A stretch of 64,000 bases of DNA from Beroe forskalii. Its lineage: Eukaryota > Ctenophora > Nuda > Beroida > Beroidae. Below are positions 8,709 through 62,650 of the stretch, one piece after another (within the stretch, counting starts at the first letter, position 1; every line of letters starts with the position of its first letter). A model generated the notes under the pieces. That model ran no database searches. It was given only the letters and a program-made list of their open reading frames with translations, and had not been told where the DNA came from. The stretch spans positions 558,001-622,000 of the forward strand of contig WFMF01000072.1 in NCBI GenBank assembly GCA_011033025.1. The letters are read 5' to 3'. The translations under genes were made by a program, and so were the position numbers.

Positions 8709-8848
8709 GGAAGTTCGAACTGCAGTTTTGTAATTTGTGTGCGCGGCATAAGTTTGCGCGGCGTACAGACATTTAAAATTTATGTCTTAACACCGCACAA
8801 ATTTGCGCCGCGCACAAAAAAACTACAGTTCTAACTGTCACCGTAACT
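8709..8848. repeat. palindromic MITE-like element, family C copy 2
   Basis: The left half AGTTCGAACTGCAGTTTTG and TTTGTGTGCGCGGC are mirrored by GCGCCGCGCACAAA and ACTACAGTTCTAACTGTCAC. It is homologous to 1168-1312. Confidence 0.75.
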
Positions 8849-14599: not shown

Positions 14600-16515
14600 A
14601 TAAATACAGTGTCAACAAAATGTATTGCAGGTGGTCAGTTGGAGCAGAAATTATACCTTTTCGAAAATATAACTGTAATATCTATGGTTGGGTTATGATC
14701 AGTTGTCAATTTCACTCAAGCAAAAAAACTGATGAGATATAAAGTATTATTCTGAAATGTCTTTAGATAGAGATAATACTGATGAGATTAATCACTGCTA
14801 TTTTGTTAATTTGATTTGCCTCAGGTCAAATTTCATCAGTAATTTAAGTATTTTCCTAAACTGATTTTGCTGATAGTCGGTTTACGTTTCAGAAAAAGAA
14901 ATTAATTATGAATTCCAACTGAATTTTAACTGAAATCACGGTCACCTTTTTTGCAACAAATTTTGCGTGATGTCTGCATTTTTTGCAGCTCTGAAATCAA
15001 TTTTCCGGGTTCACATAATTTTATAATCGGAGCCGTTTCCATTTACTTCTTGGCACCTTACGGTCTTGATTCAAACTTAATTAAATATTAACCACCTCAC
15101 AGTTGCAATCTTATCGGACAGTTTCGTAACTTTTACAAAATAATGCTGTAAAAATCATGGTAATGATTGAAGCTTGCCTTTCACATTAAACAGATAGGAG
15201 CTTCACAGAACTAGGGGCTTCCGTAAAACAAGGAAAACGTTGGGAAGAGTCTCTGTAGGAATCGCATGCTAATGTCGAAAATTCCGTTATTTTATAAGAT
15301 TTAGGAAACAATTGTTTGTGAAACTCTGAGACATCCCATGCGGCATGGAAAGTTTACCAATACCAAATACAATGCCGGGAACAATTGACGGCCTTTTGTC
15401 GAAATGACAGTTTTCTGTATTTCTATTGAATGTACTAATGTAATGAAACAATGAGACAATGTCCTCAGTATTGGTGCTTTTGTCACATGTGACATTTTAT
15501 TGCAGGGTATAAAACATAAATTTATTCTTCATTTTAAGGCAAGGTGATTCATATTGTAAAATTCATAATTTTCGAATAATTTTGTAGGGAAAATTTCGAG
15601 AGATTAAAATAGAAATAATAACCACCTCACAACAGCTTAAAAGACATGGTTCTTGTAGCTTTCCTCTGCTCAATCATCTCTTTTCGTCACTCCAGGAAAG
15701 AAATCCTGTGCTCACAACTCCAATAGTATTTCTGACTGAATACTGAGTAATGAGAGCTCATAAAACAGTTGATAAAATCCATATAGCCCTATTCACCAGG
15801 GGGTCGGCAGTGAGTCAGTAGAGGGTTAGTAGGGGGTCAGCAGAGATTCATCGGTAGGTATATTTTCAATTTTCATGCTACCCATATTTCACCACCAAAT
15901 ATGATAATTATCCGAGTGTATTCCTATCCGAGTGTATACCTAATCCAGCACTGTCCTGCTGCCCAAGCAGCTCGTTTACATATTCTAATACGACGTTTAA
16001 ATTACTGCGGGGTTTATTTCACCGCTAATGAGAACAGGCTCCAGGATCTGAGAGTAAAATTGAGATCAGCCCCCAGTTAATATATAGTTTAACAATGTAT
16101 GTTAAGGAATATAATTAATAGAATTAACTTACAGAATCACCGGTCGTCTAGCGAGCTCCCTATAACTGCGAGCTCCCTATAACTCTGTCCCATTCTGCTC
16201 ACCATAATAATAAAGCCCTCTTCTCCTTCTTCTTCTTCTTCTTCTCCCTCCGCCCATATATTTCAAGATCACTCTTCTTCTCACAGAATATCACATGTAA
16301 GGGGCATGCTTCTTTTCAAATTACATGCTCTGAACGTGCAATAAGTTGAATATTCCGCAAGGAGCGCATGTGATCGAATCACTCAATCACTTACTGTATG
16401 GAATAGTTGTCGCCGATGAGGTAAGCTGAGTCTAGATGAGTTATTAGTATTCTCAAATTATTCTATGAGGAACTTATCACACTCGGCTCCACCTCGTGCA
16501 ATAAGGTTACTCACT
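14600..16515. other. intergenic stretch
   Basis: No exon recognised. 15790-15850 has short GGGGTCAG/TAGGGGGTC-type repeats like the intronic minisatellite at 28.7 kb. 16220-16255 is a TTC/CTT microsatellite. Confidence 0.45.
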
Positions 16516-16528
16516 GTACCTCTATTGG
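16516..16528. repeat. target-site duplication, left copy
   Basis: GTACCTCTATTGG, exactly repeated at 21814-21826, immediately flanks the non-LTR element. Confidence 0.85.
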
Positions 16529-16549
16529 GGGGCGAGGAGTAATAACCTC

Positions 16550-17503
16550 ATGCTGGAGCGGTGTCAGGCAAGTGGTGTCAGGGACGGCCCGCTACTCCAA
16601 TATGTGGGAATATCTCCAGAGTCTTTTAGACTAAGACCTGCATACGTGGATTGGAGCCACAAGCCTTCAAGAGGTGCCCCTGTCATGCTGAAAATGCAGG
16701 ATCGACCCAGGACCAGGATATCAGGTCCTTCCCTTGTCTGGACTCCAACCAGCAAGGGACCCTTCTTACAGTTCGGCGCCACGGTCCGGACGGGCATCAT
16801 CGTCATGCCTACGAGTGGCACATCTCTTTCTCTCGGCTTATGCCTGCTGCTTTCCCGTGTTTTATGGATTTGCTTTTATTTAACATCTTTCGCGGAAACA
16901 GTTAGAAGTTGTCTCTACACTCTTTATGAGGATGAAGGCAGCGCTAACTGCGTACGCACCCTGCTTTACACCAGGACTCTGGGCAGCGCATGGCTCTACC
17001 ATCGCGAGCCGGGAGACTGTGTGTCACTGTCCGGATTAGCAACGACCCTTCCACGTGTAGGACCTGATCTGACTGAACTGAACCCCACCACAGTGCGATA
17101 TCCTTTCAAAGGAGAATCAAACAGGGTGGGGGGAGGGACGGAAAGAACGGGGATCCATACGGGAGGGGCACCGAGCGACGTCGGACCCACTCCCACCAGA
17201 ACGTGGAGACCTTTCAAGGTAGCTCTGCGAATGGCTGGGGAAACTCCCACCAAAACATGGCCTCCCCTCAAAGGAGTGCCTAGCATGGCTGGGGAATCTC
17301 TCACCACAGCATGGCCTCCCCTCAAAGGAGTGCCTAACGTGGATGGGAAAACGGTACGTGTGCATTATTCTGATAAGAAGTTGCATAGGCGCTGGTACGT
17401 TATCTATACTTTAATGACGGAAGGCGCGATGACATTTCTATTGATGATTTTGCGCATATATCCAATTATCAGGCGGTGCGCGCGGAAAACCCGCGCATAC
17501 TGA
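16550..17503 (+). pseudogene. gag-like ORF1 remnant of the non-LTR element
   Basis: An open frame of 317 codons with no recognised fold. From about 17190 to 17345 an 18-residue (54-bp) unit ending in WPPLKGVP or similar repeats about three times, including MAGETPTKTWPPLKG and MAGESLTTAWPPLKG. The downstream continuation in other frames (17537-17700) has the CxxC...H cluster CCNCGLEDH expected of a gag zinc knuckle, although spacing is imperfect. Position immediately upstream of the endonuclease supports gag identity. Confidence 0.55.
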
Positions 17504-17748
17504 TAACACTCTTCATCAAACGGGCGAAGTCGGTGCGTGGTCTTCTTACACCGTAAACATACGCTGCATGTGTCCCCGGATTCAGTGCTGTGTTGTAATT
17601 GCGGGCTGGAAGACCACTCGTTGGAAAGCAGGGGACTTTCTGTCCCCTGCACTTGGAGGGAGCTTCACGCCCTAACGGGAAGTGAGACCCTCCCAAAACG
17701 AATCGGAATCATGACTAAAATGGTTCCGTCACCGGCCGACACCCCAAG

Positions 17749-18600
17749 ATGAAGAAACGCGAGTTCAATGACAGTCTTGGCTTTGTCCAGATCAATTTGA
17801 ACAAGCAACGGCAGGCCACCAAAGATCTGGGAACCTATATCCGCGATATAGATAAACCAATGATATTGGTACAAGAGCCACATGTCAACGGAAAAGGTGT
17901 TATCTCTAAGGGGTCATACTGTCTTCGGGCTGCGGCCTGTAAGTCTCGGGAGACACCAATTAGAGCAAGCATCTTTTTCCACTCATGCATGGAACGACAA
18001 GTTTGGTTTAAAGAGTCCATTACAACCGCGGACTGTGCAGTCGTGCAGACTAAGGTGGATGGAGTCGAAACACTAATTGCGTCATGTTACATGGATGGAA
18101 CCGATACACAATGCCCATCGCCAGACTTCATGAAAGTCGTTGAGTACGCGAAGAAGCATAGTATCGCACTGATCATCGGAACTGACTCAACGCTCATAAC
18201 ACGGCATGGAATAGCAGGATAGGTGATCAAAAGCGCAAGGAACGAGGGAACAAACTTCTCAGTACATCCTTGCCAATGACCTGTTTATTGAGAATGCGGG
18301 GTCAACGCCCACCTTTGACAACGGCCGCTGGAGTAATTCTATTGACCTCACGATCACGAACAAGGCCGGGCACAGTCTCGTAGCCGGCTGGTTTGTGGAC
18401 GTGAAGGATCGGGTAGAGCACTCCTCGGACCACCGCTTCATCGCATTCAAATCAACAGGGTCAACCCTTCTCGCCAGACAGAACTTCAGAGATATCTCAA
18501 AACCAATTGGGAACACTTTGAGTCTGATCTGAACCTCCGGATGTCTTCCAAAGCCGAGATGTTCAGGAATATCGACTCTGTCGAGAAAATGGACACCGCG
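17749..18600 (+). pseudogene. APE-type endonuclease domain of the non-LTR element
   Basis: Starts with MKKREFNDSLGFVQINLNK. QINLNK and VQEPHVNGKG match the N-terminal endonuclease motifs of non-LTR retrotransposons. GTDS near 18180 corresponds to the GD(F/S)NA region. After a stop at 18220 the homology continues in another frame with FDNGRWSNSIDLTITN and DHRFIAF (the SDH motif region). At least one frameshift and one stop lie inside. Confidence 0.75.
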
Positions 18601-36479: not shown

Positions 36480-36960
36480 ATAAGTGCACGTGTGCACCCA
36501 AAATGCGCACTCAAAAAGTGCATGTGCGCACTCAAGATTTGCACGCACGTACTCAAGAAGTGCACGCGCGCACTCAAGAAGTGTGCGCGCACTCAAGAAG
36601 TACATGCGCGCACTCAAGTGCACGCGCGCACTCAAGAAGTGCACGCGCGCACTCAAGAAGTGCACGCGCGCACTCAAGAAGTGCACGCGCGCACTCAAGA
36701 AGTGCACGCGCGCACTCAAGAAGTGCACGCGCACACTCAAGAAGTGCACGCGCACGCGCACACTCAAGAAGTGCACGCGCGCACTCAAGAAGTGCACGCG
36801 CACACTCAAGAAGTCCACGCGCGCACTCAAGAAGTGCACGCGCGCACTCAACGCGCACACTCAAAGCATGAGCGCACTAAAAAGTGCACGCGCGTACGCT
36901 CGAACTCTGAAAAAGTGCACGCACTGCGCACGCGCGCACTTGCACTCAAGAATTGCACGC
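36480..36960. repeat. GC-rich 21-bp minisatellite
   Basis: About 20 copies of GCACGCGCGCACTCAAGAAGT. Because 21 is a multiple of three and the unit lacks stops in several frames, long open frames appear on both strands (up to 195 codons). These are by-products of the repeat. CpG density is very high compared with the surroundings. Confidence 0.95.
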
Positions 36961-41425: not shown

Positions 41426-44400
41426 CTATTCAATTTCACCCAATGAATCGAAGGCTAAAACTGAATCGCACAACCCAAAATTATCACTGACTTCCAGAGA
41501 GAATTCGTTAGATCTTCGTTTGCCTTCCTTAGATTTTGAATTACGGTGCTTATCTTTCTTCTTTTTCTTTTTTTCTTTCTTCTTTTTACTCTTCTTGGAT
41601 TTTTTCTCCTTTTTAGGTAACAACTCACCTTCCGATCCTTCGTCAGAAGCGCTTTGAGGAAAGTCTTCCATAGGGTCTCTTACGTCATCAAGGGCACTAC
41701 TGAGGGCAAGGTTTGGTTTGGAAGCAACGGGCACGCTGACATTCTCAACAGAGTTACGATTATCAGGGTCATCCGAAGCTGAGGAAGTGGGTTTCTGTCG
41801 GATGCTTTCTTTGAATTTCAACCGCGTGTGACCTGTTTTACCATCGCTGCTAGTGTTCTTGTCTTCCGCTGATTTTTCGGGTGTTTTTAGGGAACCGTTT
41901 ATTTCTGTGTCAACAGTATCAGCCTGCTCTTCAGATTTTCTTGACGGGCGATGTGAACGTTTTGAATGCTTTTTCTTGACAGAATTGCCTTTTTGGCTTG
42001 ATTTATTATGAAACATTAATGATTCATCAACAGCGTCGTTGTCAACGTGAAGATCTTCGCTCTTTGTCTTACCTGATTTATCTGCATTCAAATCAGATTC
42101 AGAACTTTTTGTCTTTTTTTCTTTTCTAATGTGATCAGATTTATTCTCGGAGGCATTTGGTTTCTTATCTCGATTTCCTGAACACTTATTCGATTTTGTC
42201 TTTTGATTCCGACCTCTCTTTTTGAGTTCTCTCACGTTTTACTTTGTTATCATCCACTTTTGCACTTGATTTCACGTCTTTATCAAGAATCTCATCGTCT
42301 TGACCAGATTTGGATTTGGAACCAACAGACTTTTTCAGTGTTTCGATCCTGGATAACTTCCTATCTTCGCATTGATCATTTTCTCGCACATCAGATTTCT
42401 TATCAGATGACACCCTTTTCTTGTTTTCGATGTTCTTGTTGTCAGTAGACGAGTCTTCAGCAGGCTTTTGATCTCGGGAAGTTCCAGATTTTTCTGTCAA
42501 AAGTGGTTCTTCCTCAGAACATTCCGCATTTCCGCTCTTCTTCTTTTTGTGCTTTTTGGGCTTGTTACTTCTGTGTTTCTTCGATCCAGATTTAGGTGAA
42601 ACGATTTTCTTCTCGGAATTATCTCGCTCTGATCCGGAACCACTCATTGATTTTCGTGATTGGTGCTGTGATTTTCTCTCATCGACCGTGTGAGTCAGCT
42701 TCTTGATCTGTTCACGGATTTCTGCAGCACGACTGACGAGCGTTTCGTTGCTGTCACTTTCTGAAGATGGATCGTGGATGGATTTAACTTTTTCATCAAT
42801 TTTTGGAGGTGATTTTTTGACAGGTTCAGCATTTCGATCCTTCTTCGACGATTCATCTTTACTCCGGTCTCTTTCCTTTTTAGATGATCCTTCCTGAGAT
42901 GATTCAACTCGTTTATTGTTCTCTGATTGCGATTCGTGCCTCGTTTTCAATTTCTTACTATCAACTTTTTCTTCGGTCTCACCGCTAAGCTTAATCCTTC
43001 GTTTACCAGAAGGTTCTTTTGAATGTTTTTCTTTCCGTATAGGGGACTTTTCACGCGATTTGGAAGATTTTTCAGGTGCTACAGATCGCGTTTTGTCTGA
43101 TGTGGAATCTAGTCTTTGGTATTTATCACCACCTGATCGATCATTTTCCCGTTTAGATGAAATTTTGAGGCTATCCTCCTTTTTCTCAGTTCTTTTCGGG
43201 GAATTGTCACACTTTGAACGTTCACGACTGCTTTTGGTCTCGTCCCTGTGACGAGACTTCTTGTGGCTGCTGAGAGTTTCTGAATAACTTGCTTTCCTGG
43301 GTGGTTTACTTGGTTCAGATTTAAGGACTTCTGATTCCAACAAGGACGATTCACTTATTTTCCGCTTCTTGAGCGATGTTTCATCTGTAAATTCTTCAGG
43401 ATATAGCTCTTTGTATCCACTGTGACCCCACCTGAGATACGAAAATAATTGGAAATAAGAAATAGAGCGAATTCATTTCAAGACACGGTGAAACTAAGTG
43501 CTGAAATAGATTGAAAACTGGTGTCAGTGCGTTAGCTGGTGGCAGTGCAGACTGTAGTGTCAGTGAAAGCTGGTGTCAGGGTAAAACTGAGGTCAGCACA
43601 TAGTGTCAGTGCAAACTGGTGTCAATTCTTTAATGTAAACTGATGTTAGTGCAAACTGGTGTCAATGATTCAATGTAAACTGATGTCAGTACCAAACTGG
43701 TGTCAATGCTTCAATGTAAACTGATGTCAGTGCAAACTGGTGTCAATGATTCAATGTAAACTGATGTCAGTACAAACTGGTGTCAATGCTTCAATGTAAA
43801 GTGATGTCAGTGCAAACTGGTGTCAATGCTTCAATGTAAAGTGACGTCAGTGCAAACTGGTGTCAATGCTTCAATGTAAACTGATGTCAGCGCAAACTGG
43901 TGTCAATGATTCAATGTAAACTGATGTCAGTACAAACTGGTGCCAATGCTTCAATGTAAAGTGACGTCAGTGCAAACTGGTGTCAATGCTTCAATGAACA
44001 CTGGTGTCAATACTTAAATGTAAACTAATGTCAGTGCAAACTGGTGTCAATGATTCAATGTAAACTGATGTCAGTAAAAACTGGTGTCAATGCTTCAATG
44101 TAAACTGATGTCAATGCAAACTGGTGTCAATGATTCAATGTAAACTGATGTCAGTACAAACTGGTGTCAATGCTTCAATGTAAAGTGATGTCAGTGCAAA
44201 CTGGTGTCAATGCTTCAATGTAAAGTGACGTCAGTGCAAACTGGTGTCAATGCTTCAATAAAAACTGGTGTCAATGCTTTAATATAAACTAAAGTCAGTG
44301 CAAACTGGTGTCAGCCCAAAGAATCACCTGTACCTCTGTACATCTAATTCTAAAGTAACACATATACCTGGTTGGGTCCTTTTCCTTCAGCTCTATCAGT

Positions 44401-53775: not shown

Positions 53776-55917
53776 ACCAGGGCCTCAATTTGAGATTGAG
53801 TTAAGGGGCCTGTACAACACATTAGTCAATTGAATAGAATTATTAATCAATTCCATCTGGTTGCACTGATGTGTTTTACAGGCCTCAAATGACTAAGTCA
53901 TGTTGTTGGTAAAAGACTTTTTGGGTAAAACTTGCCTAGTGATACTAGGCCCGCTGATGCAGCCAAGAAGCCCAAGCATCCATCATCAATAGACAATGTG
54001 ACACCTATTGTTCAGCCGAATAAATGAAAAAATGAATAAAAAATCGAATAAATGAATAAATACAAAGAAAAATTTTAACTTTAGTGTTCAAGAAGTTGCC
54101 CAACATTATCATTGTTTAGTAAATTACAACTTGATTGATGACCAATTCCATTTAATAAAATGATGACACATGATGTGCTATAAATTTCCCTTTGGTATTA
54201 TGTGCTTACAAAAAATCAATTTATATCTACTTCCAAGTGGAAGAGGCAAAGAACAATATGAATAATGTGTAATTGCAATGAGCATAGCTCTAAATGGTTC
54301 ATCATTGATAGACAACACAAAATTCCTGTTTACTCTAACCAGACCCCTCTTTTGCCTGAAGCGCAAATCTGTGTTAGCATCTGGTTAGGTGAACATTCCT
54401 GTGATCAACATTGATCACTAGATAAGTTTTCAGCCAATTAAGTGTGTGCACTTGCACTGATAAAACTATTTATGAGAATCAAATTAATACCAAAATTTTC
54501 ATAGATACAGGCTAGGTTATTACAAGCATGTATAGTCATTGGTTGATCGAGTGTAATTGGTCGATCAATAACATAACATAACATAAGGATAATGGTATTT
54601 ACCCATCACTCTTCACATAGACAATAATCAAGAAAAATAGATAACACTAATATGCACCATTTAACTCAGGTGCCCATTACTCATTGATAACATTCATAAA
54701 TATTAAATAAACTTTGATAATAAGTTAAAAGTGTGAAATCACTGTGATAATGAAAGACAGCAATTTTATTAAATATAAATAACTCCATTGAAAGTATATA
54801 AAGTATAAAACTTTTTGCTTTACAGCAACACAGTTCCACAACAAACTCTTCACAAAACTACATCGTTCATTTTAACACATGTTACAATGTGTTCATGGTT
54901 TCATTACTAAAATGCAACATAAAATACTTCAATATCAATTAACACCCCTATCTAGGTGCTTGGAGTCATCATTAAACCAAAATTTACAAATAAATAAATT
55001 GCGGTACAAGCTTGAAATACTTAGAAGTACATGCTTAATAGTAGGGAACGACTGATGTGTTTTAATGGTTCCAAATGACTTGAATCGTGGTTGAATAAGC
55101 AATGTTATAGTTGTTTCCCTACTAGCTAAAAGATTTTCTGTGTAATAAACATCTCAGTAGATCAAATAAAGTTGATCGATTTCATTTGATCGACCAATGT
55201 ACTATAAAATACAAAATTTGCCAGATGGTGTCTGCCCCCGACTCGGCGACTCTGCGAGTCAGGGCGCGCGCGCAGTGCAGCTAGGGGGCCGGGGGCCAGA
55301 CAAAGAAAAGATAAGAGATCAGTGAAATTTGCGAAGCAGATGCTTCATATTTGTATATGGTGGAATGGAGTCAGTTTCGCATTGAAATTTGCGATTTTTA
55401 CCGCGTTATTTTTTGAAGGCAAGAAAAATGGTCCGAATGTTGACCGACGTTGTTAACCCATCAACTTGTGATTACACTATCTCGCATCAGTTTATTTAGT
55501 AGGATGTTACCCAACGGGGCGCGCGCAACATGACAGCGCGCGCGTGGGAAATTTCGAAAGAAAGCTATAATTGCGACAAAGGTAACGTACGTGCGCGCGC
55601 GGCTCAAATAATATTCACTACAAATTTAGATAGCCACTAAAATGTTTTCGCGCCTTACAAAAACATTCGATTTAATTTGGCTGTCACAAATTTGCAGTAG
55701 GACTTTCGACCAAAAGTGAACCAAATCGTGCGCGGAAATCTGCGTTTTTACGGAATAACTTGGAAATATTTCAACACTTATTTTTTCAAAATCATGAAAT
55801 AAGAAAGTTACCCACCGACTGATTATAACTAATGAGAATTTGCTGCATTCGAGAGTGATAATACTCGAAAGTTGGCGGTCCATATGAGTAATTTTCGAGA
55901 TTCCTATCAGGTCAAAT
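53776..55917. other. intergenic
   Basis: AT-rich, with a fold-back repeat at 53807-53884. A sharp composition change at 55,240-55,610 has several runs of CGCGCGCG, including CGACTCGGCGACTC like family D. Open frames near 54178 and 55626 have no recognised motifs. Confidence 0.4.
53807..53884. repeat. 78-bp fold-back repeat
   Basis: GGCCTGTACAACACATTAGT at the left is mirrored by ACTGATGTGTTTTACAGGCC at the right (two mismatches over 20), with inner CAATTGAAT/ATCAATTCC. It is MITE-like. Confidence 0.75.
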
Positions 55918-58900
55918 GGTTCAAAAATGGCAAAAATTCAAAAAGTCGATTTTGAGGATGTTCCCACCAACAGATTTTCCTGAAATTTTGCAGGGATTTT
56001 CATTTCATCATTGTCTTTCAGAAACTGTTAAGAAAATTGGGGGTCTATGTGCTTATTTTTGAGATATAAGGTCAAACGCAAGGAAATACCGACGAAAATG
56101 GTTCAAAAATGGCAAAAAGTCGATTTTGAGGATGTTCCCACCAACAGATTTTCCTGAAATTTCGCAGGGATGTTCATTTCATCATTGTCTTTCAGAAACC
56201 ATAAAGAAAATTGGGGGTCTATGTGCTTATTTTCGAGATATAAGGTCAAACGCAAGGAAATACCGACGAAAATGGTTCAAAAATGGCAAAAAGTCGATTT
56301 TGAGGATGTTCCCACCAACAGATTTTCTTGAAATTTTGCAGGGATGTTCATTTCATCATTGTCTTTCAGAAACCATAAAGAAAATTGGGGGTCTATGTGC
56401 TTATTTTCGAGATATAAGGTCAAACGCAAGGAAATACCGACGAAAATGGTTCAAAAATGGCAAAAGTCGATTTTGAGGATGTTCCCACCAACAGATTTTC
56501 TTGAAATTTTGCAGGGATGTTCATTTCATCATTGTCTTTCAGAAACCATAAAGAAAATTGGGGGTCTATATGCTCATTTTCGAGATATAAGGTCAAACGC
56601 AAGGAAATACCGACGAAAATGGTTCAAAAAGGGCAAAAAGGCGATTTTGAGGGTGTTCCCACCAACAGATTTTCCTGAAATTTTGCAGGGATGTTCATTT
56701 CATCACTGTCTTTCAGAAACCATAAAGAAAATTGGGGGTCTATGTGCTAATTTTCGAGATATAAGGTCAAACGCAAGGAAATACCGACGAAAATGGTTCA
56801 AAAATGGCAAAAGTCGATTTTGAGGGTGTTCCCACCAACAGATTTTCCTGAAATTTTGCAGGGATGTTCATTTCATCATTGTCTTTCAGAAACCATAAAG
56901 AAAATTGGGGGTCTATGTGCTAATTTTCGAGATATAAGGTCAAACGCAAGGAAATACCGACGAAAATGGTTCAAAAATGGCAAAAGTCGATTTTGAGGGT
57001 GTTCCCACCAACAGATTTTTCTGAAATTTTGCAGGGATGTTAATTTCATCATTGTCTTTCAGAAAACATAAAGAAAATTGGGGGTCTATGTGCTTATTTT
57101 CGAGATATAAGGTCAAACGCAAGGAAATACCGACGAAAATGGTTCAAAAATGGCAAAAGTCGATTTTGAGGGTGTTCCCACCAACAGATTTTCTTGAAAT
57201 TTTGCAGGGATGTTCATTTCATCATTGTCTTTCAGAAACCATAAAGAAAATTGGGGGTCTATGTGCTTATTTTCGAGATATAAGGTCAAACGCAAGGAAA
57301 TACCGACGAAAATGGTTCAAAATGGCAAAAGTCGATTTTGAGGATGTTCCCACCAACAGATTTTCTTGAAATTTTGCTGGGATGTTCATTTCATCATTGT
57401 CTTTCAGAAACCATAAAGAAAATTGGGGGTCTATGTGCTCATTTTCGAGATATAAGGTCAAACGCAAGGAAATACCGATGAAAATGGTTCAAAAAGGGCA
57501 AAAAGTCGATTTTGAGGGTGTTCCCACCAACAGATTTTCCTGAAATTTTGCAGGGATGTTCATTTCATCACTGTCTTTCAGAAACCATTAAGAAAATTGG
57601 GGGTCTATGTGCTAATTTTCGAGATATAAGGTCAAACGCAAGGAAATACCGACGAAAATGGTTCAAAAATGGCAAAAAGTCGATTTTGAGGGTGTTCCCA
57701 CCAACAGATTTTCCTGAAATTTTGCAGGGATGTTCATTTCATCATTGTCTTTCAGAAACCATAAAGAAAATTGGGGGTCTATGTGCTAATTTTCGAGATA
57801 TAAGGTCAAACCAAACGCAAGGAAATACCGACGAAAATGGTTCAAAAATGGCAAAAAGTCGATTTTGAGGGTGTTCCCACCAACAGATTTTCCTGAAATT
57901 TTGCAGGGATGTTCATTTCATCATTGTCTTTCAGAAACCATAAAGAAAATTGGGGGTCTATGTGCTAATTTTCGAGATATAAGGTCAAACGCAAGGAAAT
58001 ACCGACGAAAATGGTTCAAAAATGGCAAAAAGTCGATTTTGAGGGTGTTCCCACCAACAGATTTTCTTGAAATTTTGCAGGGATGTTCATTTCATCATTG
58101 TCTTTCAGAAACCATAAAGAAAATTGGGGGTCTATGTGCTTATTTTCGAGATATAAGGTCAAACGCAAGGAAATACCGACGAAAATGGTTCAAAAATGGC
58201 AAAAGTCGATTTTGAGGATGTTCCCACCAACAGATTTTCTTGAAATTTTGCAGGGATGTTCATTTCATCATTGTCTTTCAGAAACCATAAAGAAAATTGG
58301 GGGTCTATGTGCTTATTTTCGAGATATAAGGACAAACGCAAGGAAATACCGACGAAAATGGTTCAAAAATGGCAAAAAGTCGATTTTGAGGATGTTCCCA
58401 CCAACAGATTTTCTTGAAATTTTGCAGGGATGTTCATTTCATCATTGTCTTTCAGAAACCATAAAGAAAATTGGGGGTCTATGTGCTAATTTTCGAGATA
58501 TAAGGTCAAACGCAAGGAAATACCGATGAAAATGGTTCAAAAAGGGCAAAAAGTCGATTTTGAGGGTGTTCCCACCAACAGATTTTCCTGAAATTTTGCA
58601 AGGATGTTCATTTCATCACTGTCTTTCAGAAACCATAAAGAAAATTGGGGGTCTATGTGCTAATTTTCGAGATATAAGGTCAAACGCAAGGAAATACCGA
58701 CGAAAATGGTTCAAAAATGGCAAAAAGTCCATTTTGAGGGTGTTCCCACCAACAGATTTTCCTGATATTTTGCAGGGATGTTCATTGCATCATTGTCTTT
58801 CAGAAACCATAAAGAAAATTGGGGGTCTATGTGCTAATTTTCGAGATATAAGGTCAAACGCAAGGAAATACCGACGAAAATGGTTCAAAAATGGCAAAAA

Positions 58901-59015
58901 GTCCATTTTGAGGGTGTTCCCACCAACAGATTTTCCTGATATTTTGCAGGGATGTTCATTGCATCATTGTCTTTCAGAAACCATAAAGAAAATTGGGGGT
59001 CTATGTGCTAAGATA
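55918..59015 (+). repeat. ~174-bp satellite array, plus-oriented arm (18 units)
   Basis: Counting the landmark GTTCCCACCAACAGATTTT gives 18 units spaced 170-179 bases, mostly 173 or 174. Units are nearly identical, and variants (GAGGATG or GAGGGTG; GTGCTTA or GTGCTAA) are clustered, suggesting recent local duplication. One frame stays open across 174-base units (58 codons, with PTDFPEILQGCSFHHC and KKIGGLCANFRDIRSN). 173-base units, which lose one A in the CAAAAAGTCG run, break it. Confidence 0.97.
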
Positions 59016-59647
59016 TAAGGTCACATGCAATATACAAGCTCAAAATCGAATTTTGTGTAATATTTGAACCATTTTTGTGGATATTTCCTTACGCTTGACC
59101 AAACTTTTTTCTTCTTTTAAGCCGCAAACTAGCAGAAATACTCAAATATTGTACTTCCACTGCATTAAAGTTATAAAATTCAGTGTATATTGATTGGTAT
59201 ATTGTATATCTTGTATAATATGTATGTGGCACCTTGTATATAATTATCTTGGAGGGTCATGATAGTTGATAGGGCTGTCAAACTCTTGGTAATGAAGTTG
59301 TCTAGCTGCGTTTTCTTACCTCATTACCCTAAGGGCTATTACCTTATCCTGTTAGCGTGATAGTTTATCCTCAAGATGGCCAATATTGAGTGATAATCTT
59401 TCCCTAATTGGTTTAGTCAAGTGAGTGACATGACCGTGATGGGAAACGTATGCTCGTGTGGCTAGCTTAAACTTTTATGGGAACAACTTCAGCCGTCTCA
59501 TGGTAGCCTTTCTCCTGAGTTTCTCAGTATCAATTGACCTTGGGTGATATCGATCGGAGTATATTTTTGTATATTAGTAGGTATATTGGTAAGCTATGAT
59601 GAAAGACTGTATATTTTGAACCATTACCTATATGCTATAGTTTCGTG
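59016..59647. other. unique spacer between the two satellite arms
   Basis: About 630 bases of non-satellite sequence, with only short degenerate echoes of the unit at its edges (59055-59100 and 59635-59660). It separates arrays of opposite orientation. No gene seen. Confidence 0.7.
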
Positions 59648-61395
59648 CATATTCGTGTAATTTCCTTGCCTTTGACCTTATACCTCGAAAATTAGCACAT
59701 AGACCCCCAATTTTCTTTATGGTTTCTGAAAGACAATGATGAAATGAACATCCCTGCAAAATTTCAGGATTCAAATCTGTTGGTGGGAACACCCTCAAAA
59801 TCGACTTTTTGCCATTTAATCGACTTTTTGCCATTTTTGAACCATTTTCGTCGGTATTTCCTTGCGTTTGACCTTATATCTCGAAAATTAGCACATAGAC
59901 CCCCAATTTTCTTTATGGTTTCTGAAAGACAATGATGAAATGAACATCCCTGCAAAATTTCAGGAAAATCTGTTGGCGGGAACATCCTCAAAATGGACTT
60001 TTTGCCATTTTTGAACCATTTTCGTCGGTATTTCCTTGCGTTTGACCTTATATCTCGAAAATTAGCACATAGACCCCCAATTTTCTTTATGGTTTCTGAA
60101 AGACAATGATGAAATGAACATCCCTGCAAAATTTCAGGAAAATCTGTTGGTGGGAACATCCTCAAAATCGACTTTTGCCATTTTTGAACCATTTTCGTCG
60201 GTATTTCCTTGCGTTTGACCTTATATCTCGAAAATTAGCACATAGACCCCCAATTTTCTTTTATGGTTTCTGAAAGACAATGATGAAATGAACATCCCTG
60301 CAAAATTTCAGGAAAATCTGTTGGTGGGAACACCCTCAAAATCGACTTTTTGCCATTTTTGAACCATTTTCGTCGGTATTTCCTTGCGTTTGACCTTATA
60401 TCTCGAAAATTAGCACATAGACCTCAATTTTCTTTATGGTTTCTGAAATAAAATGATGAAATGAACATCCCTACAAAATTTCAGGAAAATCTGTTGGTGG
60501 GAACACCCTCAAAATTGACTTTTGCCATTTTGAACCATTTTCGTCGGTATTTCCTTGCGTTTGACCATATATCTCGAAAATTAGCACATAGACTTCAATT
60601 TTCTTTATGGTTTCTGAAAGACAATGATGAAATGAACATCCCTGCAAAATTTCAGGAAAATCTGTTGGTGGGAACATCCTCAAAATCGACTTTTTGCCAT
60701 TTTTGAACCATTTTTCGTCGGTATTTCCTTGCGTTTGACCTTATATCTCGAAAATAAGCACATAGACCCCCAATTTTCTTTTATGGTTTTGAAAGACAAT
60801 GATGAAATGAACATCCCTGCAAAATTTCAGGAAAATCTGTTGGTGGGAACATCCTCAAAATCGACTTTTGCCATTTTTGAACCATTTTCGTCGGTATTTC
60901 CTTGCGTTTGACCTTATATCTCGAAAATTAGCACATAGACCCCCAATTTTCTTTATGGTTTCTGAAAGACAATGATGAAATGAACATCCCTGCAAAATTT
61001 CAGGAAAATCTGTTGGTGGGAACACCCTCAAAATCGACTTTTTGCCATTTTTGAACCATTTTCGTCGGTATTTCCTTGCGTTTGACCTTATATCTCGAAA
61101 ATTAGCACATAGACCCCCAATTTTCTTTTTATGCTCTGAAATAAAATGAAATGAACATCCCTGCAAAAATTTCAGGAAATTTCGTGTTGGTGGGATATAT
61201 CAAAATGGATTTTTTTGCCATTTTTGAACCATTTTCGTCGGTATTTCCGCGTTTGACCTTATATCTCTCGAAAATAAGCACATTATGGACCCCAATTTAA
61301 TTTTCTTTATGGTTTCTGAAAGACAATGATGAAATGAACATCCCTGCAAAATTTCAGGAAAATCTGTTGGTGGAACATCCTCAAAATCGACTTTG
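59648..61395 (-). repeat. ~174-bp satellite array, minus-oriented arm (10 units)
   Basis: Ten inverted units, by the landmark AATCTGTTGGTGGGAAC and variants. They are less regular than the left arm: at 61130-61395 the units carry insertions and deletions, as expected at an array edge. Together with the left arm it makes a large, imperfect inverted repeat. Confidence 0.97.
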
Positions 61396-62650
61396 TCATT
61401 TTTGAACCATGGGTTCACTTTTGTCTCGAAAATAAATTTGGCAATTTTCACAGTTTTGACAACCATGGAAAATCACTTGGTCATTTTTGAAAGTCCAACT
61501 CCAAATTTGGCTGTCACAAAGTGATACAGCATCATCAGAATGCGGAACATCAATAGTAAGATGTAATAATGATGACAATCAGATAGATTCGATTCATTGT
61601 TTCCCTGATATCAAATAATTAATAACTGATTGGAATGCAAACCTTTTCAGGAACGCTTTTAATAAATTACGCGAAATGCAATAGAAAAAATTGACTTGGA
61701 AAATAAACCAGGTATATCACAGCAGTGAACAGCTATGTACTTTTGGTCAGCACTCAGCTGACTAGATGTTGCGGAAACGAATTCACTTTAATATAAAAGT
61801 TGATTCTCCAAATGCTTTTATCTCACAATAAACCCTTATCATTAACAAAATCAAAAGTATATGAATTCCAAAAGTGTTTCGCATATTGATTGTTACAAAT
61901 TACAATGGCGAAATTGCTAAAATCTGCAAAAAATATAATAAATATCAATTATCAACTCAGAGTGTCATGGATGTAGTAGCTGAGGTTCTGAAACCCATTG
62001 TCAATGAAATAATGAACATATCACAGCATTTCAATTCCCACTGATCTGACTAACTATTTACTTCTCTACAGTATAAAATGTACTCGATGTTGCAATAAGT
62101 TGTATTGTTAGCGATTGTATTGTAATAAGATTTCGCATCGAGGTGGATACGATTATGATTGTTAAAATCGGTACCGGATACCAATCACCATTGAAGATAC
62201 CTGATCTTTAAAATAAATAACCCAAATCATTCATATTCCAGACATATCGACAAATCTTCACGATTCAGTCACCACCCAGTCCATCGTGAATAGATTGTTA
62301 TCATCGTTCATCAATATTATAAAGATACATCAGTATTAAGTGCTAATAAACATCAAGACCGAGACGTTCGATTTGGAATGGAAGTATTAAGTCACAGTTC
62401 GTTATTCACAGAACAAATCCAATCTCATCTGCAGAATGGAATTGCACTGAATAAAAGTAAAATCGAGCACTTCAGTGCTCCTGGCTTTTGCACCTAACAG
62501 TGCGCATATCAACTACAAATTCAAAGCGATGAAATTCAACAAATCAATCTGACCGCAGTTCAATCAGACAAAGCCATTCACCATGTCTAAAACCATTTCA
62601 CAGCAAGATGTATCTCCTACAAGAAGAATAGTTAAATCTCCCCAAGTCTC
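61396..62650. other. intergenic / 3' side of the Piwi gene
   Basis: AT-rich; no exon seen. The Piwi 3' UTR should occupy the right end. Confidence 0.45.

Follow-up and report, generated by a model that had tools for sequence, protein, structure and literature searches.

A probable foldback transposon with satellite-like arms in the ctenophore Beroe forskalii and a CG-rich host motif outside one of its ends

The opposed arrays and their ends

The 64,000-bp stretch of the Beroe forskalii genome analysed here (contig WFMF01000072.1 of assembly GCA_011033025.1, positions 558,001 to 622,000; hereafter the window) contains a candidate foldback element, in which two arrays of a ~174-bp unit face each other across a spacer. 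Tandem Repeats Finder (TRF) placed the first array at 55924-59011 (period 174, 17.8 copies, 97% matches) and the second, with the unit reversed, at 59818-61410 (period 174, 9.2 copies, 93% matches). Together with unit-by-unit comparison by the basic local alignment search tool (BLAST), this bore out a sequence-only reading of the same DNA, which had counted 18 plus-oriented and ten minus-oriented units around a unique spacer, here of ~640 bp. That reading had confined the object to the arrays; these are real, and the whole is slightly larger, running from 55695 to 61501 with an 8-bp duplication on each side. The features, with the two ends designated A and B, are as follows (L numbers denote loci and C numbers contigs).

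55645..55666, plus strand: target motif TTTTCGCGCCTTACAAAAACAT, in host DNA flanking the A end (matrix score 23.4; also in the uninserted L045)
55687..55694, no strand: left copy of the 8-bp target-site duplication CAAATTTG (same 8 bp after the B end; single in L045)
55695..55707, plus strand: A-end terminal inverted repeat CAGTAGGACTTTC (sharp homology edge in other copies; genome matches)
55695..55930, plus strand: A-end subterminal unique region, 236 bp (matches in other loci)
55931..59009, plus strand: left arm, 18 head-to-tail units of ~174 bp (TRF, unit-by-unit BLAST)
59012..59650, plus strand: central spacer, single copy inside the element (93-97% identical in 17 other loci)
59653..61407, minus strand: right arm, 10 units in opposite orientation (TRF, unit-by-unit BLAST)
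61489..61501, minus strand: B-end terminal inverted repeat, GAGTTGGACTTTC on the minus strand (copy alignment; genome matches)
61502..61509, no strand: right copy of the target-site duplication CAAATTTG (identical to the left copy; single in L045)

The termini are asymmetric 13-bp inverted repeats, and copies oriented on the 236-bp A-side region start with CAGTAGGACTTTC (a few with one change) and finish with GAAAGTCCAACTC. Searches covered the 216-Mb genome (1134 contigs), from which 20 array loci were fetched by place. CAGTAGGACTTTC was found 78 times (3 for its reversed control), GAGTTGGACTTTC 66 times (14 for the control) and SAGTWGGACTTTC 154 times (31 for the control). A and B ends no more than 10 kb apart formed 39 convergent pairs versus 1 in another arrangement; the convergent pairs span 569 bp to ~8 kb, and at least three of the 39 are composite or span two elements (C275 4717, C892 9019 and C179).

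Identical 8-bp duplications flank nine of the 10 array copies that have both exact ends on one contig, a count that includes a copy on C382 read from L030 plus L039 (duplication AGTGGCCC); the tenth, L019, has a 7-bp duplication, TAATATT, shifted by one. The duplicated bases differ from copy to copy, being CAAATTTG in the window and CGTAACTC, TGTAGAAA, GGCAAATC, GCAAAACT, AAAAAGAG, GAAGATAA and CGCTTTTA in others, and such a target-site duplication of fixed length and variable sequence is characteristic of foldback elements. For the window duplication, lengths of 9 bp (GGCTGTCAC) and 6 bp (AAATTT) were ruled out by aligning other copies. Moreover, L045 (C568), a paralogue of the window flanks (97% and 94% identical), has one CAAATTTG and lacks the element; it is an uninserted or precisely restored site.

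Some ends depart from this pattern. The B end in the window (61408-61501) is ~60 bases longer between array and terminal repeat than the other B ends compared. Half-elements with a common 8-bp duplication lie on separate contigs in L022 (C580) and L023 (C346), which have CGTACCGT, and half-elements with a common duplication likewise in L013 (C656, at the contig end) and L018 (C122), which have GCTTGAGT; assembly splits, haplotypes or rearrangement through the element are alternative explanations. In L024, ~100 bp of A-side flank, motif included, is repeated directly after a truncated B end, and the insertion is therefore bounded by a long duplication instead of one of 8 bp.

Dispersal, sister families and the coding test

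A genome search for other loci of the unit, proposed in the sequence-only reading, found many that carry the same arrays, an outcome foreseen among the refuting conditions of that reading, with at least 276 matches to a 401-bp array probe. The spacer is complete or nearly so, at 93-97% identity, in 17 loci besides the window; elsewhere, part of it is present in C656 at 100%, and identity is 75-93% in a few incomplete or diverged matches. The 236-bp A-end region is 84-94% identical in many further loci and 100% identical in four, over 232-239 bp in three of them and 229 bp in the fourth, which suggests recent spread. The arms of the two-armed fetched loci face each other around the spacer, and because this layout recurs at many loci, chance as its cause is excluded. 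The number of units per arm varies from 3 to 24 in the fetched loci (L027 3/4, L014 22/6, L015 24/13, L010 23/9); the count of 37 plus units in L016 extends beyond the right arm into a second array and so takes in two elements. A single arm only was seen in L009, L011, L013 and L018, of which L013 stops at a contig end. Dispersed copies with tandem-repeat arms of variable length around a middle are typical of foldback transposons, and the inverted, hairpin-capable layout, rightly recognised from the sequence at the outset, is the hallmark of that class, which was not named then.

Two units taken from the same arm were on average 95.4% identical, those from opposite arms of a locus 96.2% and those from different loci 95.6% (in the window, units of the same arm are somewhat closer, at 97.2%), and the units behave as one pool, without locus-specific homogenisation overall. 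Sister families have the same ends with other arrays. One, L043a, measures 1081 bp, is flanked by matched 8-bp copies of CTGAAATA and contains a related unit, 61-64% identical to that of the window, in two facing arrays (alignment score 76; shuffled sequences reached at most 29). Another, L047 (C310), is a 7.87-kb element with a matched 8-bp duplication, TGCGTCAG, and other arrays, whose unit has no clear similarity to that of the window (score 20, shuffled maximum 23). At L043, read across the first element and the near end of the second, CTGAAATA precedes the first element and recurs between it and the array element behind, as expected if a newer element re-used the same spot.

Given the 58-codon frame that runs open through 174-bp units, we assessed whether the unit changes as coding sequence does. 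The unit length had been described as a multiple of three; this is true for 13 of the 25 units cut from the window and 156/298 over all loci, and in the remaining 142/298 the frame is broken, lengths of 171, 172, 173 and 175 bp being frequent beside 174. Substitutions were counted in units of 168-178 bp, a range that excluded 30/298 units (2/25 in the window), and expectations came from 2000 randomisations preserving the change spectrum. Distinct changes from the consensus fell evenly on codon positions 1, 2 and 3 (85/82/79 in 268 units), with 54 synonymous changes (56.2 ± 4.1 expected) and 14 new stop codons (15.6 ± 2.5 expected). In the window alone (23 units), changes numbered 23/12/20, with 15 synonymous (13.1 ± 2.8 expected). 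A coding role for the frame is thus not upheld: the comparison of codon positions, proposed in the sequence-only reading, went against it, even though the long open frames reported earlier are present (137-163 codons), and that reading had itself granted that near-identical units might explain the open frame. The array peptide is best regarded as fortuitous, and no part of the element would be expected to be translated.

These results bear on three other accounts of the arrays. A translated gene for a repetitive protein of 58-residue repeats would find favour in the frames of up to 163 codons and in a whole-protein score of 29 bits for DUF2158 (cut-off 22.3, no single stretch passing alone), yet codon positions are equally changed, neither stops nor non-synonymous changes are depleted, almost half of the units break the frame, and the same arrays sit in both orientations within a mobile element, all of which makes this account barely credible. 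Virtually no probability attaches either to an ordinary, immobile local satellite array with a chance inversion: tandem units are 96-97% alike within the window locus, as such an array would predict, but arms, spacer and ends recur at unlinked loci with matched 8-bp duplications, the uninserted paralogue L045 exists, and units are as alike between loci as within one arm. A long hairpin transcript feeding small-RNA silencing, which the inverted layout had suggested, would draw on long opposed arms in one element, with opposite-arm units of a locus 96% identical on average. We regard it as unlikely, given that foldback elements generally have such a shape, so that shape alone does not show a role, and that the arms differ in unit number in most two-armed loci. 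Judged from sequence, the arrays are very probably the arms of a non-autonomous, foldback-type cut-and-paste DNA transposon without a gene, because the termini are paired and asymmetric, the 8-bp duplications matched and copy-specific, a paralogue uninserted, the copies dispersed and the arms variable.

A CG-rich motif outside the A end

The host DNA outside the A end contains the motif TCnnCGCGC(C/G)TT(A/C)CGnAAA, described by a 22-bp matrix trained on 30 flanks. Its CGCG starts at positions -38 to -33 in 24 of the 30 A ends not directly adjoining another repeat end and at -46 or -47 in two more, and in the adjacent bins (-44 to -39 and -32 to -27) it starts in 0/30. CGCG was first noticed by eye in a discovery set of 17 A ends, two of which (L043b and L023) abut another element; it lies at -38 to -33 in 14/15 of the non-abutting ends and at -46 in the window, which belongs to a class one turn further out. 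The window motif TTTTCGCGCCTTACAAAAACAT has the best score on both window strands, with a training set that included this flank. A test set comprised 17 further A ends from A-B pairs, plus L046 and L047; four of its members (L048, L058, L059 and L062) directly follow a repeat end. CGCG lies at -38 to -33 in 10/15 of its non-abutting ends (binomial P 2e-5 at about the mean outer-bin rate, 0.004 at the rate of the richest bin) and at -47 in L061.

The mirrored place beside the B end has CGCG in 1/15 flanks, and the placement is therefore oriented. The gap from the end of the motif to the 8-bp duplication, searched within the inner 60 bp, was 9-12 bp in 27 cases and 20-21 bp in 3 (the window, L054 and L061), L054 and L064 scoring low. 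Thus, in most A ends read, the element is placed in one orientation, its 8-bp duplication 9-12 (or 20-21) bp from a CG-rich host motif of ~18 bp. The duplicated 8 bases themselves are not conserved between copies. When A-side flanks were compared all against all, matches of 16-29 bp were found, most of them over the motif; exceptions were the groups L023/L059, L048/L058/L062 and L054/L064, and L049/L063, which share 18 bp elsewhere. The 15 B-side flanks compared gave one 21-bp match. By eye, B-side flanks appeared palindromic or TTGTGNCAAA-like, an impression on which no claim rests.

Genome-wide, the strict motif CGCGNNTKACGCAA has 136 matches, versus 15 for its reversed control. Among 100 of the 136 places, those listed, six precede an exact A end, at distances of 36, 36, 36, 37, 37 and 47 bp (matched up by eye); two of the six, C339:109940 (36 bp) and C216:81354 (47 bp), lie outside the fetched loci. 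The motif is a genomic feature of its own, and among the places listed it is mostly unoccupied by exact A ends. One further place lies in the window.

17411..17432, minus strand: unoccupied target motif beside LINE-like frames (matrix score 19.6)

The B flank of L022 and the upstream DNA in L023 resemble, by eye, the window stretch around this motif, which is like a long interspersed nuclear element (LINE). The LINE-like frames of the window occupy 16505-18222 (plus strand), appear endonuclease-like by eye at 17719-18222 and gave no Pfam match. Two GC-rich palindromic hairpins (1222-1270 and 8753-8820) also score with the target matrix and resemble, by eye, another small repeat. The window holds further tandem arrays at 36505-36851 and 43604-44314 (21-bp and 40-bp units, TRF), apparently unrelated to the element.

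We place at roughly 0.65 the probability that a group of animal transposons, comprising several foldback families with different arms, selects its insertion points by their distance from a separate ~18-bp CG-rich host motif, this distance being fixed and in phase with the helix (9-12 or ~20 bp), while keeping to a single orientation and using the same site more than once, in a eukaryotic counterpart in logic to Tn7 targeting. Several points weigh against this. The 36 A ends read, not all of them exact 13-bp matches, compare with 78 exact CAGTAGGACTTTC matches in the genome, and L011, L015, L016, L017 and L022, which have the A region without an exact A terminus, stand outside the counts. CGCG is in neither place in four of the 30 (L049, with TGCGCC in register instead, L051, L054 and L064), and L054 and L064 have a common flank. 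The proportion becomes 24/36 once the six abutting A ends, all without CGCG in place, count as misses. L023 and L059 were classed as abutting only after the absence of CGCG had been seen, on the basis of a common flank (98% over 103 bp) and, for L023, of an A-like end of another element (CAGTAGGACATAAATC) ~1.1 kb upstream, which in turn follows a motif at a distance of 19 bp (11 plus 8). The 1/15 at the B side comes from 15 flanks that leave out those of the 17 test ends, and the 9-12 and 20-21 bp spacing is descriptive, since the 30 flanks measured are those on which the matrix was trained. Finally, and against the transposon reading itself, transposase matches in the genome, from searches that ignore introns, never lay between exact paired ends, the only ends considered (inexact ends could escape): there were 46 for Mutator-like elements (MULEs), the nearest 4.2 kb outside a copy; 23 for hAT, the nearest 26 kb from an exact end; and 35 for Merlin (IS1595-type), the nearest 138 kb away.

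If the element did not choose the motif and simply landed in open CpG-rich DNA such as promoters, CGCG would reflect base composition only. The A-side flanks are indeed CpG-rich farther out (up to 9/30 per 6-bp bin at -110 to -81), and the motif is itself enriched genome-wide. However, the CGCG peak spans 6 bp between bins that are empty, and it is one-sided. Promoters are not the whole account because a CFAP65-like gene holds the L027 copy, flanked there by two CFAP65-like frames of the same strand, and because L022 and L023 have LINE-like sequence next to them. Overall, we consider explanation by composition or promoters quite improbable. Long frames in the flanks were mostly uninformative as evidence of neighbouring genes. 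Flank frames besides CFAP65 gave an F5/8-type C match, which together with CFAP65 would fit a flagellated animal, and a 221-residue minus-strand frame in the B-side flank of L010 matches a ribonuclease 2-5A (RNase L/IRE1-type) domain (E 1.3e-8).

It is possible, at somewhat less than even odds, that the element belongs specifically to the MULEs (Mutator superfamily). Published foldback elements are usually placed in Mutator, and MULE matches exist in the genome, none of them between exact paired ends. MULE duplications are ~8-11 bp long, and the 8-bp duplication agrees with both MULE and hAT and is not diagnostic. Duplications of ~8 bp are given for hAT and P as well (PMC3706591), and Galileo, also a foldback form, belongs to the P superfamily (PMC3573991). 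Models for KDZ (Zisupton and kin, PF18758) and the P type (PF21787) had no genome match, and because their controls matched nowhere either, both results are uninformative. KolobokP was rejected, having TTAA-type or 3-5-bp duplications (PMC9587614). As candidates for an autonomous copy, L047 proved a true member without any frame of 120 residues, and L046 (C179) a composite with unmatched duplications (GCATTCAT / AGATAATG). A MULE match in a 500-residue open frame at C247:1109765-1109971, 4.2 kb outside an element copy, is probably unrelated.

Proposed mechanism and comparison with known systems

Under the targeting reading, a transposase supplied in trans would recognise the 13-bp termini, and the motif would be bound either by a further DNA-binding surface of that enzyme or by a host protein that tethers the complex; direct or tethered recognition would make the A end face the motif. 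The arms may hold additional transposase-binding sites, as proposed for Galileo (PMC3573991), and would grow and shrink by unequal exchange, while newer elements could re-use the same spot. The arrays are ordinary in kind, since foldback transposons with satellite-like arms are already known; possibly new here is the offset, oriented and perhaps helically phased targeting. If true, the transposase or its host partner would amount to a naturally occurring animal system for integration at a programmed distance, of interest both for basic biology and as a tool, and the seeding of satellite-like arrays at predictable places and their stacking in tandem would be explained.

Tn7, a bacterial element with a 5-bp duplication and one or few sites per genome (attTn7), may be likened to the present case in geometry only, in that insertion occurs in a single orientation, a fixed distance past the sequence recognised. 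To our knowledge, such geometry is unusual for a eukaryotic DNA transposon, and the literature searched showed none whose target motif is offset, an absence not thereby proved.

A close likeness in structure is to Tetris of Drosophila virilis, a non-autonomous foldback element with long inverted arms of ~220-bp tandem repeats, variable in number, which have a flanking domain on one side and an inner or middle domain on the other; its duplications are of 8-9 bp (8-10 over all copies), no autonomous copy was found, and its ends are common with DAIBAM (PMC4079207). The Beroe element is likewise non-autonomous, with tandem-repeat arms of variable number, 8-bp duplications and ends common to other elements. 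It differs in unit, termini and host, in that its two ends are unlike each other and in its placement relative to a motif; the part of PMC4079207 consulted mentions no target motif. Galileo of Drosophila also has long inverted arms that are internally repetitive, with tandem repeats that vary in one arm independently of the other, and chimeric copies with unmatched flanks, as here; its duplications are of 7 bp, in contrast to 8 bp here, and its transposase is known and of the P type (PMC3573991).

Among sequence-targeted elements, Dada is a cut-and-paste transposon whose insertions fall within U6, U1 or tRNA genes and have duplications of 6-7 bp (PMC3706591). The present element resembles it as a targeted eukaryotic cut-and-paste transposon with one target side more conserved; here a gap of 9-12 (or 20-21) bp separates the word from the duplication, whereas the conserved word of Dada overlaps the duplication. 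Membership of Dada was rejected, the duplications being 8 bp and the flanks unrelated beyond motif-length matches and the groups named above. MuTAnT elements, MULEs of Medicago that target TA microsatellites (PMC4486113), also have a specific target, which in their case is the microsatellite itself and not a distant word. Targeting at a distance is known from the retrotransposons TRE5-A and Tf1, which are directed by host DNA-binding proteins to no specific position (PMC3706591); unlike these, the Beroe element is a DNA transposon in our reading, and in most of its copies CGCG starts within a span of 6 bp.

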